A stretch of 58,446 bases of DNA. Source: Prochlorococcus sp. MIT 0701. Its GTDB lineage: Bacteria; Cyanobacteriota; Cyanobacteriia; PCC-6307; Cyanobiaceae. Of this stretch, positions 30,691 through 35,933 are shown in pieces. The position numbers were made by a program, and so were the translations under genes. The notes below the pieces were generated by a model. The model was not told the origin of the DNA. It did not search any database and was given only the letters and a program-made list of their open reading frames with translations. Each line of letters starts with the position of its first letter. The first letter of the stretch is position 1. The stretch lies in NCBI RefSeq assembly GCF_000760295.1, contig NZ_JNBA01000018.1:1-58446 (forward strand). Direction: 5' to 3'.

Positions 30691-31386
30691 TTGCCATCTA
30701 TTCACCCAGAGCCGCATAACAGTTCTCGTACAACCTGGCTACGGGCAGCCGTTCTTGGTGCCAACGATGGCATTGTCTCCACTGCAAGCTTGGTGGTGGG
30801 TGTGGCATCGGCCCAAAGTAGTCACCATGGCGTGCTCCTGTCTGGACTAGCAGGTCTAGTGGCCGGGGCAATGTCAATGGCTGCTGGCGAATACGTGTCA
30901 GTCAGCTCTCAAGCTGACACAGAAAAAGCAGATCGGGAGCAAGAACGCAAAGAGCTATCCAAACACCCTGAAGCTGAACTAAAAGAGCTGATTGAAATCT
31001 ACCAACAGCGAGGTCTTGATCTAACACTTGCAAAGCAGGTTGCGATACAACTCACCAAGCATGATGCACTCGCTACGCATATGCGCGAGGAACTAGGTTT
31101 CTCACCAATTAGCCAGGCAAGGCCAGTCCAAGCTGCAATCGCATCAGCCAGCATGTTTGCTCTAGGCGCAGCTGTTCCGCTCATCGTTGCATCACAACTG
31201 CCAGTGAAACAAATTCCAGTGATCGTATCGATTGCATCATTGATCTGCTTAGGCCTTCTCGGTGGCCTCTCAGCCCGTGCAGGTAAAGCATCAATTAGAA
31301 AAGCGGTTGTAAGAATAACGTTCTGGGGTGCACTGGCAATGGCTATCACTGCAGCCATAGGAAGTCTATTTGGTGTAATTCACTGA
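30691..31386 (+). CDS. VIT1/CCC1-family iron/manganese transporter
   Basis: 231 residues from a TTG start (no in-frame ATG nearby). Family motifs are clear: LGANDGIVSTASLVVGVA in helix 1, GLVAGAMSMAAGEYVSVSSQ in helix 2, a cytosolic Glu-rich helical segment (residues about 75-140) that binds metal, then three more helices. VIT/CCC1 proteins move Fe2+ or Mn2+ out of the cytosol in exchange for protons. Stands alone but lies 0.8 kb before an imelysin/di-haem/Fur group, in line with a role in iron handling. Confidence 0.9.
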   Translation: MPSIHPEPHNSSRTTWLRAAVLGANDGIVSTASLVVGVASAQSSHHGVLLSGLAGLVAGAMSMAAGEYVSVSSQADTEKADREQERKELSKHPEAELKELIEIYQQRGLDLTLAKQVAIQLTKHDALATHMREELGFSPISQARPVQAAIASASMFALGAAVPLIVASQLPVKQIPVIVSIASLICLGLLGGLSARAGKASIRKAVVRITFWGALAMAITAAIGSLFGVIH

Positions 31387-32179
31387 ACAGGCGGAAATCA
31401 TCCGACAAAGTATCCTGACTTGACACCTACATGGACGCAAGAGGATTTGATCGATAGTTAGTAACTATTTTGTAGTTTATCGTGTATTTACTACAGCAAG
31501 AAGAATGGTTGATTAGCCAACAACGTGAATACTCCAAAAGATTAAAGCCATAATTATACATAAGAAATCCATGCAATGGTTCCCTCTATGAAGAAAGCCG
31601 GAAATACCTAAAAGAATCCTTACAAAAGGTCAGGAGTGACTATACATCAACTCCAAGATAGGTGGGTTCAGATAGAACCATGACAAGTGATCTGGGAGGG
31701 TAAAGCCTCCTATTGCGACTTCAATTGTCTTGGCTCTAAAGAGTTTCAAGCCAGTCATTCCTCAAGGAAATGGCAAGCCTTGATGGACAAGACTTTCCTG
31801 AAATATATCGCATGAATTGACTTTTAAATTTATACTATCTACTCTGATGATGACGATCACAAAATAAGCTCTTAATTGTAAATAACTATTCCTCACTTGC
31901 CATGTAGCTTCTAAACATTTGATCTTCGTCTCAAAGCACTTTTTCCTTAAAGGGTTATTAAAAACTGACTGCAGCCAAACCTGTTCAATGCAAAACACAA
32001 ACTTGCTTATCTGATGGAACAATTTCACTGAAGACGTATTTTACAAAAGGCTGAACCAACAACAATGAAGCCTCTCCAAGTAACAAATGAGTTGTTCGCC
32101 TGTATTGTTTGCGTCGCCTTGTCAGGCGTTCATCAATAGTGTCTGAAAAATAACCACTCACCCAGCTTCGGGTTTCACA
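31387..32179. other. Intergenic region
   Basis: No supported gene. The last 100 bp should carry the promoter of the imelysin gene. Confidence 0.5.
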
Positions 32180-33187
32180 ATGATTCGTTTGCCTCGCCTG
32201 GCTCCACTTCTTGGTGCCGCTGCTCTCTCGGCAAGTATCACAGCAGCATGCACACCGCAGTCACAGACGGCACCTACGGAGAAGGAAGTAAGCAGCGCAT
32301 TAGTTAATAATGTTGTACTGCCTAGTTATCAAAAACTTGTAGCTGCAACAGAGAATCTTAAGGAGGATCTGAACAAGTTCGCGAAGGACCCTACCGACGC
32401 CAACCTTGAAGCCGCCCGCAAGCAATGGAAGACTACGCGTAAAACATGGGAAATAACAGAAACCTGGGCCTATGGTCCAGCCGAAACAGATGGTTTTGAC
32501 CCCAATCTTGATGATTGGCCCGTCAGCAGAAAGGAGCTGGCCCAAGCCTTAGATGAGAGTAACTTTTCCAAAACAACCTTTGCAGACCTCGACACAACTG
32601 GACGAGGCTTTCACGGAATTGAATATGTTCTTTTCGGCGATGGAGGTCAAGCTGTTTCAGCAGCTTCAATGACTCCTCCACAATTGCTATATCTTCAAAT
32701 CGCCGGTGAAGACCTCGAGCAGAATGCAAAAGGTTTGCTTGCCGCATGGAGTGGAGACGAAGGCTTTGGCAAAGCCGACGTTGAGGCCGATCCAAGCAAA
32801 ACTGTCAGTGACATCCTTGAAGGGATGACCGGCTGTTTAGATGAGGTTGCCAATGGCAAATTAGGAGCAGCCCTTGAGGCAGGCAAAGACGAACTAGAAA
32901 GCACTTTCAGTGGCAACACCGGATCCGATGTAGTTTCAAACCTAAAAGGAGTGCGGCTTGCATGGAAAGAGTCCAAGCTGCAGGCTCTTGTTAAAGCCCA
33001 AGATGAAGAGATCGCAAAAGCATTGACTGATCAACTGAATGCGGCCATTGACCTTGCCAAAGCACTGCCTAAAAGGCTTAACGACAAGATCGATGATCCG
33101 GCAACACGTGAACAGATCGAGGATCTCCAGGCGGCGATCATGGCCGCATTAGAAACCACTACTGCTGTATCAGAAAAGATAGGATAA
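32180..33187 (+). CDS. Imelysin-family (M75-type, IrpA-like) lipoprotein
   Basis: 335 residues. Lipoprotein signal with lipobox-like S-I-T-A-A-C (Cys about 24). Imelysin fold markers: an N-terminal helical repeat with W-x-x-T-R-x-x-WE and Y-G-P, then the GxHxxE motif in GFHGIEYVLFG (about residues 145-155). Members are periplasmic or outer-membrane-anchored, iron-regulated proteins tied to iron uptake (IrpA of cyanobacteria, ICMP); the peptidase role is doubtful. Followed after 42 bp by a di-haem oxidoreductase, a pairing known from iron-regulated operons in other bacteria. Confidence 0.88.
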   Translation: MIRLPRLAPLLGAAALSASITAACTPQSQTAPTEKEVSSALVNNVVLPSYQKLVAATENLKEDLNKFAKDPTDANLEAARKQWKTTRKTWEITETWAYGPAETDGFDPNLDDWPVSRKELAQALDESNFSKTTFADLDTTGRGFHGIEYVLFGDGGQAVSAASMTPPQLLYLQIAGEDLEQNAKGLLAAWSGDEGFGKADVEADPSKTVSDILEGMTGCLDEVANGKLGAALEAGKDELESTFSGNTGSDVVSNLKGVRLAWKESKLQALVKAQDEEIAKALTDQLNAAIDLAKALPKRLNDKIDDPATREQIEDLQAAIMAALETTTAVSEKIG

Positions 33188-33229
33188 TTTTTTAATTATA
33201 TATTGAAATAAAGATGAGATGATTGAATC

Positions 33230-34564
33230 ATGAGATTCATTTTTCTCTCAAAATTACTTCTGGGATGTCTGGCCCTTCTAGTCGCAGTTGGGTTTGGCAT
33301 CTCATTCAAGTTAGTGCGTCCCGTATGGGCAGGTGATCCACATCGCCCCGCCGGTGACATGACTGTTTTCAACCGCTCATTTGGTTCCTTTGAAACAACA
33401 GCTGACGGACTAACCAAGGCTGAGTTTGATCGTCATACTCAAACAGACCCCCTTTTCGAGCAGAAGCATGTTCCCCTTGATGGACATGTCGGTGCAGGCC
33501 TGGGACCTCTTCACAATGCCAAATCATGCTCCTCGTGCCATGTCCTAAACGGCAGAGGAAAACCAATCGCTGGCCAATCTCTCTTCAGAGTTGCGATGCA
33601 AGAAGGAGGTGGTAATCAACCAGTTCCTGAGATTGGCTTCCAACTGCAAGACAAAGCAATCTTTGGTCACAGTCCTGAAGCAAAAGTTGAACGAAACTGG
33701 ATAGAAAAAGACGGCCTACGTCAATTAAAGACTCGCATCACTCAACCCGATGGCACCGAGCTCTCAGAGGAAACCATGGCCCGATCACTGCGCATCGCAC
33801 CACCAATGATTGGCATTGGCCTGCTGGAAGCCATCCCAGAAGACGACGTGCTGGCTAATGCAGATCCAGACGATCATGATGGTGACGGAATCTCTGGTAG
33901 ACCCGTTTGGACCATCGACAGCGATGGGGAACGCCGCATTGGCCGATTTGGCTGGAAGGCAATTGCAGCCAGCGTGAACCAACAGAGCGCTAACGCCTAC
34001 CTCGACGACATGGGACTGACAACGGCAACAGGGCCGGATAGCACCATGGCTGCTGATGGGAGCCCGGCAGATATCAGTTGGGAAGACCTTGATGGGGTGA
34101 GCTACTACACACAGACTCTCGGAGCACCAGCCACAGCCGAAGCATCTCACAGCCGTGTAGTCAAACAGGGATCAGCACTCTTTGATCAACTTCAATGTGC
34201 TAGCTGTCACGTGCCCAGCCAGCGCACAGGGAACAATCAACAGGCAGTGGCAAAAGTCATCAACGACCAAGCAATCTGGCCTTACACCGACCTTTTACTT
34301 CACGATATGGGTCCTGGCCTCGATGACGGTGTGGCTGAAGAAGGTCTTAGCCTCTCAACGGAATGGCGAACTGCCCCTCTGTGGGGATTGGGAATGACCC
34401 AGAGGGTTAATCGCAAAGCAAGCTTCTTGCACGATGGCCGGGCACGCAGCATCGAGGAAGCGATCATCTGGCATGGTGGCGAGGCTAAAACTGCCCAGCA
34501 GCGCTATCAGGCCTTGCCGCAAAGGCAGAAGGATCAACTATTGGCTTGGCTCAAACAACTTTAA
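33230..34564 (+). CDS. Di-haem oxidoreductase (DHOR family, 'thiol oxidoreductase')
   Basis: 444 residues. N-terminal signal/anchor helix (LLLGCLALLVAVGFGISF). Two c-type haem sites: CSSCH near residue 100 and CASCH near residue 322; further H-DG-R-A-R-S-x-EEAI-x-WHGGEA motif at about 400-420 is characteristic of this family, related to di-haem peroxidases. Acts in the periplasm. Together with the upstream imelysin it probably belongs to an iron-acquisition or iron-oxidation unit; precise reaction unproven. Confidence 0.88.
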   Translation: MRFIFLSKLLLGCLALLVAVGFGISFKLVRPVWAGDPHRPAGDMTVFNRSFGSFETTADGLTKAEFDRHTQTDPLFEQKHVPLDGHVGAGLGPLHNAKSCSSCHVLNGRGKPIAGQSLFRVAMQEGGGNQPVPEIGFQLQDKAIFGHSPEAKVERNWIEKDGLRQLKTRITQPDGTELSEETMARSLRIAPPMIGIGLLEAIPEDDVLANADPDDHDGDGISGRPVWTIDSDGERRIGRFGWKAIAASVNQQSANAYLDDMGLTTATGPDSTMAADGSPADISWEDLDGVSYYTQTLGAPATAEASHSRVVKQGSALFDQLQCASCHVPSQRTGNNQQAVAKVINDQAIWPYTDLLLHDMGPGLDDGVAEEGLSLSTEWRTAPLWGLGMTQRVNRKASFLHDGRARSIEEAIIWHGGEAKTAQQRYQALPQRQKDQLLAWLKQL

Positions 34565-35172: not shown

Positions 35173-35652
35173 TCAGTGCTGAGAATGCTGATCACACGGC
35201 ATCCAGTGGGTTCCCATCTGGTGAGCGCCTTTGCATCCCAACTCCCGTGCCTTCGCTTCGGCCTCTAATTGAGTGGGGTAAGCCATCAACCGAGGGTCCG
35301 TTTGCGACGCAGACTTGCCGCTTACGGGAAGGTGATGCTGATGGGGATTTTCAATCTCCGATCCACCCAAAGACACCAAGCCCATGCTTATTGGACCTGC
35401 CGTCCACACTCCCATGGTGCTTACACCAACACTTAGCAAGCCCATCCCAACGACAGAAGCATTGATCACCCCCATAGCAACCACGCCAATGGAAACAACA
35501 CCCATGGGAACAACACCAATGCAAACCACTCCCATTGGAACAATACCGATCGAAACTGTGCCTAAGGGAGCTATCCCAATAGCCAGCTTTTTCGGTTTGC
35601 TCCCGCAGTGTGCTGATGCTTTGTCATCGCCAGTTTGATCAGCAGTGTTCAT
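35173..35652 (-). CDS. Pentad-repeat protein with C-terminal DUF3721
   Basis: 159 residues. Residues 26-97 consist of about 14 strict five-residue units with Gly at every fifth position (G-V-V-P-M / G-V-V-S-I type; only position 66 is Ser), all hydrophobic. Such periodicity predicts a very regular beta structure or a membrane-packed stack; it is not the usual A(D/N)LXX pentapeptide repeat. Residues about 119-155 match DUF3721: F/Y-x-T-x-x-EAEA-x-A...GC-x-GAH-x-MG-x-x-WMPC-x-x-H, with Cys and His likely to bind metal. Start overlaps the stop of the upstream DUF3721 gene (ATGA). Confidence 0.7.
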   Translation of the reverse strand: MNTADQTGDDKASAHCGSKPKKLAIGIAPLGTVSIGIVPMGVVCIGVVPMGVVSIGVVAMGVINASVVGMGLLSVGVSTMGVWTAGPISMGLVSLGGSEIENPHQHHLPVSGKSASQTDPRLMAYPTQLEAEAKARELGCKGAHQMGTHWMPCDQHSQH

Positions 35653-35933
35653 GGATTGTGTTGAGACTCCATTTGAATGCCGTGCTTGTCACAGACCATC
35701 CACATCTGACCCATCTGATGGGACCCCTTACAACCAAATTGTGGGGCGGCAGCTTCTGCCTCAGCTTGAGTTCTAAACATCGCCTGCTTCGGTTCAGTAG
35801 CTGATGTTTCAGCAGCGTTGATCCCTACTTCGCTCATTACAACTGTCAATCCAGTCGTTGCAGCAATCAAAAGTAGCGATCCACTTAATGTAGTTGAGGC
35901 TGATCGGCCCATGAGCTCCATCATTTCCACCAT
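35649..35933 (-). CDS. DUF3721 protein with membrane anchor
   Basis: 94 residues. One hydrophobic helix at about 16-36 (signal or anchor), then DUF3721 at about 51-88: FRTQAEAEAAAPQFGCKGSH followed by QMG-x-x-WMVCDKH. The paired Cys and His may bind metal. It overlaps the downstream pentad-repeat gene by 4 nt, so the two are coupled. Alternative starts at codons 4, 5 and 8. Confidence 0.75.
   Translation of the reverse strand: MVEMMELMGRSASTTLSGSLLLIAATTGLTVVMSEVGINAAETSATEPKQAMFRTQAEAEAAAPQFGCKGSHQMGQMWMVCDKHGIQMESQHNP

Follow-up and report, generated by a model that had tools for sequence, protein, structure and literature searches.

A Met/His ladder repeat fused to DUF3721 in Prochlorococcus and its relatives: a candidate copper-handling module of the cell envelope

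The gene pair, its surroundings and its conservation

The stretch of DNA analyzed here (hereafter, the window; 58,446 nucleotides of Prochlorococcus sp. MIT 0701) carries, on the minus strand, two adjacent genes whose products both match the DUF3721 domain (PF12518), with E-values of 7e-19 and 6e-18 and scores of 67.7 and 64.7 bits against a curated cut-off of 27 bits. The downstream gene (35173..35652, minus strand, as are all features of the pair) encodes a protein of 159 amino acids, hereafter the ladder protein, in which a hydrophobic repeat (residues 22-98; 35359..35589) is preceded by the motif C16-G17-x-x-P-K-K (35587..35607) and followed by a linker (residues 99-124; 35281..35358) that bears the His cluster PHQHH and is rich in His in many orthologues, and by a C-terminal DUF3721 domain (35182..35280); the initial annotation had described this last part as a Cys/His domain joined to the repeat. 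The upstream gene (35649..35933) encodes the partner, a small DUF3721 protein of 94 amino acids as listed, with a hydrophobic N-terminal signal region (35808..35933) and a DUF3721 domain (35682..35777) in which C68, H72, M74, W78, C81 and H84 are conserved. The first ATG of the partner is doubtful because this codon encodes Ile in the nearest relative, and a start at M5 or M8 (35921 or 35912) appears likelier. Alignments of the DUF3721 domains of both proteins contain the core C-x3-H-x-M-G-x2-W-M-x-C-x2-H.

Both open reading frames were found where they had originally been placed, overlapping by four bases in an ATGA stop/start junction (35649..35652). This exact overlap is shared by the window and two close relatives, and in other loci the two neighboring genes overlap differently or are separated by a short gap. 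The genome collection includes 412 stretches encoding the ladder protein, 80 of which were kept, nearly all from Prochlorococcus, Synechococcus and Cyanobium; in 46 of these 80 loci, the partner gene is located directly upstream of the ladder gene. Rather than the simple membrane anchor of the earlier view, the partner looks like a secreted protein or a lipoprotein: many Prochlorococcus partners possess a lipobox, with its Cys at the corresponding place in the signal region, and several of these have a poly-His end, whereas the remaining partners have an ordinary signal peptide.

In the window, the pair is flanked on one side by a convergent gene for a Fur-family regulator (PF01475; 34596..35156, plus strand), which adjoins the pair in 30 of the 80 related loci, and, on the upstream side, by a SepF-like open reading frame and ArsS. 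The former is a short SepF-domain protein (PF04472; 36047-36352, plus strand), and comparable short open reading frames accompany the pair at several related loci; the latter is an arsenosugar-biosynthesis radical SAM protein (TIGR04167; 36384-37382, minus strand), the upstream neighbor of the pair in many marine Synechococcus. Just upstream of Fur, there is an iron-related stretch (30691-34564, plus strand) encoding a VIT1 iron transporter, an imelysin and a di-haem oxidoreductase (DHOR). The orthologues of the pair in marine Synechococcus adjoin Fur and ArsS, not copper genes. When 46 upstream regions, together with the window, were scanned for consensus Zur, Fur and CueR-like boxes, no convincing site emerged and the best scores were unremarkable. 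Certain Prochlorococcus loci have, divergent from the partner gene, a gene for an OprB-like porin (L095:8538-9746, L127:9-1208, L128:9-1208) with a His/Met-rich mature N-terminus (GGGDHKGHHDHHSGHMNMG... GGMGGMGGMGGM), possibly a metal-binding porin.

Matches to the ladder protein, some of them partial, were detected in 65 of the 73 same-family genomes searched, the genome of origin included. Among 74 aligned sequences, C16, G17, P20 and K21 of the N-terminal motif are nearly invariant, and C16 together with the DUF3721 core residues C140, H144, M146, W150, C153 and H156 is at least 90% conserved. In comparisons with close relatives, the ladder protein has a dN/dS of 0.12-0.19 and the partner one of 0.22; both genes are under purifying selection. 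Such strong conservation, with dN/dS of 0.12-0.19, rules out a chance low-complexity open reading frame. One orthologue of the ladder protein (L017; genome G014 contig 1:1375162-1375566) is broken by a single in-frame TGA. Some Prochlorococcus have repeat-only paralogues that lack DUF3721, encoded immediately after the fused gene (L076:4209-4445, L078:10478-10720, L111:10475-10711), and the window's own genome has one elsewhere (contig 39:4918-5250); in these, the first ladder residue is Arg and, in some, Cys takes the place of one ladder Met. Searches of phage collections, plasmid collections and viral contigs found no relative of the pair.

The ten-residue repeat and its ladder of Met and His

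The periodicity to which the initial annotation had drawn attention, with Gly at 14 of 15 five-step positions over residues 26-97, is evident in the open reading frame: Gly occupies positions 26, 31 and so on to 96, with Ser66 as the sole exception, and in 200,000 shuffles of residues 22-97, 14 Gly never shared one phase of five. The segment contains a single charged residue and is strongly hydrophobic (GRAVY +1.64; maximum of 2.48 over 19 residues of hydropathy). The true unit, however, is ten residues rather than five, a reading that follows from the alternation of Ile and Met before Gly: the pre-Gly column runs I, L, I, M, I, M, I, M, A, M, V, M, A, M, L, and the unit can be written [S/C]-I-G-V-V-P-M-G-V-V. 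Met precedes every second Gly, at residues 40, 50, 60, 70, 80 and 90, and none of the six Met of the segment stands outside this phase of ten, an arrangement equaled by 2 of 200,000 shuffles. In this Met ladder (35383..35535; M40 to M80, and M90), M40, M50, M60 and M80 are invariant and M70 is nearly so (at least 90%) in the 74 aligned sequences, and distant relatives have His or Met at the equivalent places.

A profile search recovered the repeat in 99 of 386 genomes from about a dozen families. Outside the window's family, the relatives consist of the repeat without DUF3721; most have about 100-150 residues, and they begin with a stretch rich in Lys/Arg and end in a tail that contains His. 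In 29 such homologues aligned in register, the ladder position is occupied by 112 Met and 40 His out of 176 residues (86%), whereas the alternate pre-Gly position has 3 Met, 4 Cys and no His among 187 (4%), and the other repeat columns have less than 2% Met/His. Two forms of the ladder recur, namely, His-His-His-Met-Met-Met(-Met), seen in several lineages, and a form in which Thr- or Leu-like residues come first and as many as five or six Met come after them, to which the window protein belongs. The exchange of His for Met in this column suggests a soft-metal ligand; we read the ladder as a candidate ligand set mainly because, in so hydrophobic a segment, His is confined to the column that otherwise holds Met.

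The repeat is matched by the Pfam family GLTT (PF01744; E-value 4e-14, 52.4 bits, curated cut-off 21 bits), and six relatives tested score 46.9-71.5 bits, all above the cut-off. The five-residue Gly repeat is shared with this family. The window repeat differs in the Ile/Met alternation and the ten-residue unit, and the column composition of the window protein and its relatives shows no Thr-Thr after Gly-Leu, that is, no X-G-L-T-T motif, which we take to be the signature of the founding GLTT proteins. DUF3721, which both window proteins match, is likewise an existing Pfam family, to which the present case adds the fusion with the ladder repeat and the association with copper and zinc genes. Neither window protein matched any NCBIfam model, and none of the matches of the relatives was meaningful. 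In the papers of the literature searched, neither DUF3721 nor the phrase "GLTT repeat" is mentioned, which is weak evidence of absence. The initial impression of a structure not known as described thus holds for function, given that no function is assigned and the literature is silent, but not for the domains, both of which were already named in Pfam.

Regarding the structure, for which membrane embedding had been proposed, AlphaFold modeled the repeat as short beta strands at a spacing of about ten residues, without helices, at low confidence (pLDDT 47-57), and modeling the repeat by itself gave a poorer result (pLDDT 47); the confidence is higher for residues 121-150 in the DUF3721 part (pLDDT about 78-84). 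Comparison with the PDB by sequence gave no relevant match, and comparison by fold, with the low-confidence model, gave nothing significant; the weak similarities to OspA and to triple-stranded spike helices are not used as evidence. Prediction thus favors strands over helices, at low confidence and with no fold match. A membrane domain is possible and would fit the hydropathy, with a soluble oligomer as an alternative.

Genomic neighborhoods of DUF3721 and of the repeat

DUF3721 is present in 56 of the 386 genomes of the phylum, and all 56 are from the window's own family. Across 30 genomes of this family, DUF411 is found within 1.5 kb of DUF3721 for 13 of 33 genes (0.14 expected), DUF305 within the same distance in 9 of 13 cases (0.05 expected), and ZnuA within 3.5 kb in 7 of 60 (0.6 expected); the corresponding p-values, from 1e-6 to 1e-22, cover five genera and overstate the evidence because related genomes were counted as independent. 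The neighbor families, both here and in the contexts of the repeat, were picked for testing after having been seen. There are two unlike arrangements, one with DUF411 directly upstream, in Prochlorococcus-sized genomes, and the other with DUF305, MerR and an oxidase, in larger genomes, and the two point the same way. DUF411 proteins include the copper protein CopG. The DUF3721 paralogues outside the pair adjoin genes for multicopper oxidase, MerR, DUF305, DUF411 and a YHS-domain copper P-type ATPase, and also those for ZnuA, ABC-3, ArsP_1 and DUF1980. At three loci (L147, L158, L160), the ZnuABC genes, a DUF3721 protein and ArsP_1 form one cluster, joined at L147, the locus inspected for this, by a cytochrome c6-like protein and DUF1980; this looks like a zinc-status operon of picocyanobacteria. 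Elsewhere, a 219-aa protein (L149:3613-4272) with long (His-Asp) runs at both ends contains DUF3721 towards its C-terminus and weakly matches ZrgA (zinc uptake). A PepSY-TM-like protein of 90-120 aa (HR....P....LPLLxTxxTG; L146:3616-3888, L163:3686-3973, L208:6689-7054) turns up repeatedly next to copper loci with DUF3721 and once close to a ladder locus, and is possibly another copper partner.

The repeat-only relatives present another facet of the copper connection. A BlaI gene, present as one copy in nearly all ladder-carrying genomes outside the family, lies within 0.52 kb of the ladder gene in 4 of 31 genomes (p of about 3e-8 under a simple model that takes related genomes as independent). 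In these four genera, which represent two families, BlaI is 144-514 bp from the ladder gene and is followed by a gene for an M56/M48-like peptidase, as Pfam-scanned in one locus. Plastocyanin and cytochrome c6 are switched by copper through the PetR-PetP system, which consists of a BlaI/CopY repressor and a BlaR1-like protease (PMC7896320). The order of BlaI and M56-like peptidase beside the ladder gene is the same, although the ladder protein itself is neither of these. In six genomes from three families, a cytochrome c6 gene, which looks broken in one of them (G261), is 60-328 bp from the ladder gene. Other ladder genes are beside DUF1775 and CopC-CopD (L164-L166), a CusA/CzcA pump (L219), or DUF411 and multicopper oxidase (L221, L222), and about half of the distant ladder loci have no metal gene nearby. 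The association with copper genes is thus recurrent for the relatives and paralogues but is not found at the window's own locus. The "metal-linked" character originally proposed is upheld, and in a more specific form: the gene context of both domains, in relatives and paralogues, points to copper (and zinc).

A putative copper-handling module and its alternatives

In the light of these observations, it appears somewhat more probable than the opposite (about 0.55, by our estimate) that the pair forms a module of the cell envelope for handling copper or, possibly, soft metals in general. We infer metal binding, copper as the main metal, the location, the fold and the physical cooperation of the two proteins. 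The partner, which has a signal peptide in the window and takes the form of a lipoprotein in many Prochlorococcus, would be exported and would capture metal via the Cys/His/Met set of its DUF3721. The ladder protein, in turn, would fold its hydrophobic pentads into a beta structure in which one Met per ten residues forms a column, and would also contribute the His-rich linker and a second DUF3721. Together, the two proteins could hold the metal and hand it over at or in the membrane, either for buffering or for delivery to copper proteins such as plastocyanin. In support of this scheme, C, H, M, C and H are conserved in both DUF3721 copies, poly-His tails occur, and DUF3721 is found inside a poly-His/Asp protein (L149). 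CopM, CopC and CTR1 are Met/His-rich copper proteins. Because metal binding is a candidate property of the pair, we class it, in a comparison by function, among Met/His-rich metal-handling proteins such as these, with which it shares Met/His-type candidate ligands and a likely envelope location; in contrast to the helix bundle, beta sandwich and trimeric channel of those proteins, the candidate ligands of the ladder are set in a strictly periodic hydrophobic repeat, and kinship in sequence is not to be expected. For CopM, see PMC12292863.

The metal identity suggested by the context is mixed, with both copper and zinc neighbors, and the pair might instead serve several soft metals, or zinc, as a periplasmic trap, a tentative alternative that agrees with the DUF3721 genes beside ZnuABC, ArsP_1 and DUF1980, the ZnuA association and a HupE/UreJ neighbor. 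The ladder, however, is Met-rich, and Met-rich sites typically serve Cu(I)/Ag(I), not Zn; furthermore, the repeat-only relatives associate with copper-specific genes. More doubtful is the scenario in which the metal role belongs solely to DUF3721 and the His-rich stretches, with the repeat being a membrane or oligomer anchor in which Met and His do no more than pack or cap. The strong hydrophobicity of the repeat (GRAVY and hydropathy maximum alike), the occurrence of DUF3721 without the repeat in copper and zinc operons, and the tolerance of Thr, Leu, Ile, Arg or Asp at the first ladder positions are all compatible with an anchor, and the ladder Met could indeed serve packing. Yet repeat-only proteins devoid of DUF3721 themselves adjoin copper genes, and plain packing would not predict that, within a hydrophobic segment, His replaces Met in the ladder column alone.

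A role in iron homeostasis under the adjacent Fur is quite improbable: the regulator is the convergent neighbor in 30 of 80 loci and, in the window, VIT1, imelysin and the di-haem oxidoreductase are just upstream of it, but Fur is not co-transcribed with the pair, its linkage is missing from most Prochlorococcus loci, no Fur-box-like site was seen in the 46 upstream regions or the window, and the DUF3721 paralogues and repeat-only relatives group with copper and zinc genes. Least credible is an ordinary pentapeptide-repeat protein with a right-handed quadrilateral beta-helix, for example, of the DNA-mimic type, with which the repeat shares the five-residue period, predicted beta strands and a weak Pentapeptide_2 match (12.2 bits, E-value 0.17; cut-off 26.4 bits), given that every member tested is below the curated cut-off, the repeat columns lack the A(D/N)LXX signature, and there is no acidic surface, nearly all non-Gly, non-turn positions being hydrophobic; the initial view that this is not the standard pentapeptide-repeat signature is, accordingly, sustained.

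A bolder version of the copper-handling module, which we consider unlikely as it stands, would make the ladder repeat a new class of structure: a beta-solenoid (or an intertwined oligomer), hydrophobic and embedded in the membrane, widespread in cyanobacteria, in which a stacked His/Met column would store Cu(I) or pass it across or along the membrane, and would provide the plastocyanin/cytochrome c6 switch with copper or with a report of it. The ladder reading, the His/Met exchange and the copper link of both domains appear in no paper of the literature searched, which is weak evidence that they are new.

How Prochlorococcus deals with excess zinc is not known, according to a study of toxicity (PMC8374608). 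Marine Synechococcus and Prochlorococcus are copper-sensitive and yet use copper for plastocyanin. The combination of the lineage-restricted DUF3721 with a Met/His ladder, which gene order links to copper control across the cyanobacteria, provides a concrete candidate for holding or moving copper in these organisms, and two Pfam domains without assigned function, DUF3721 and GLTT, gain a testable role.
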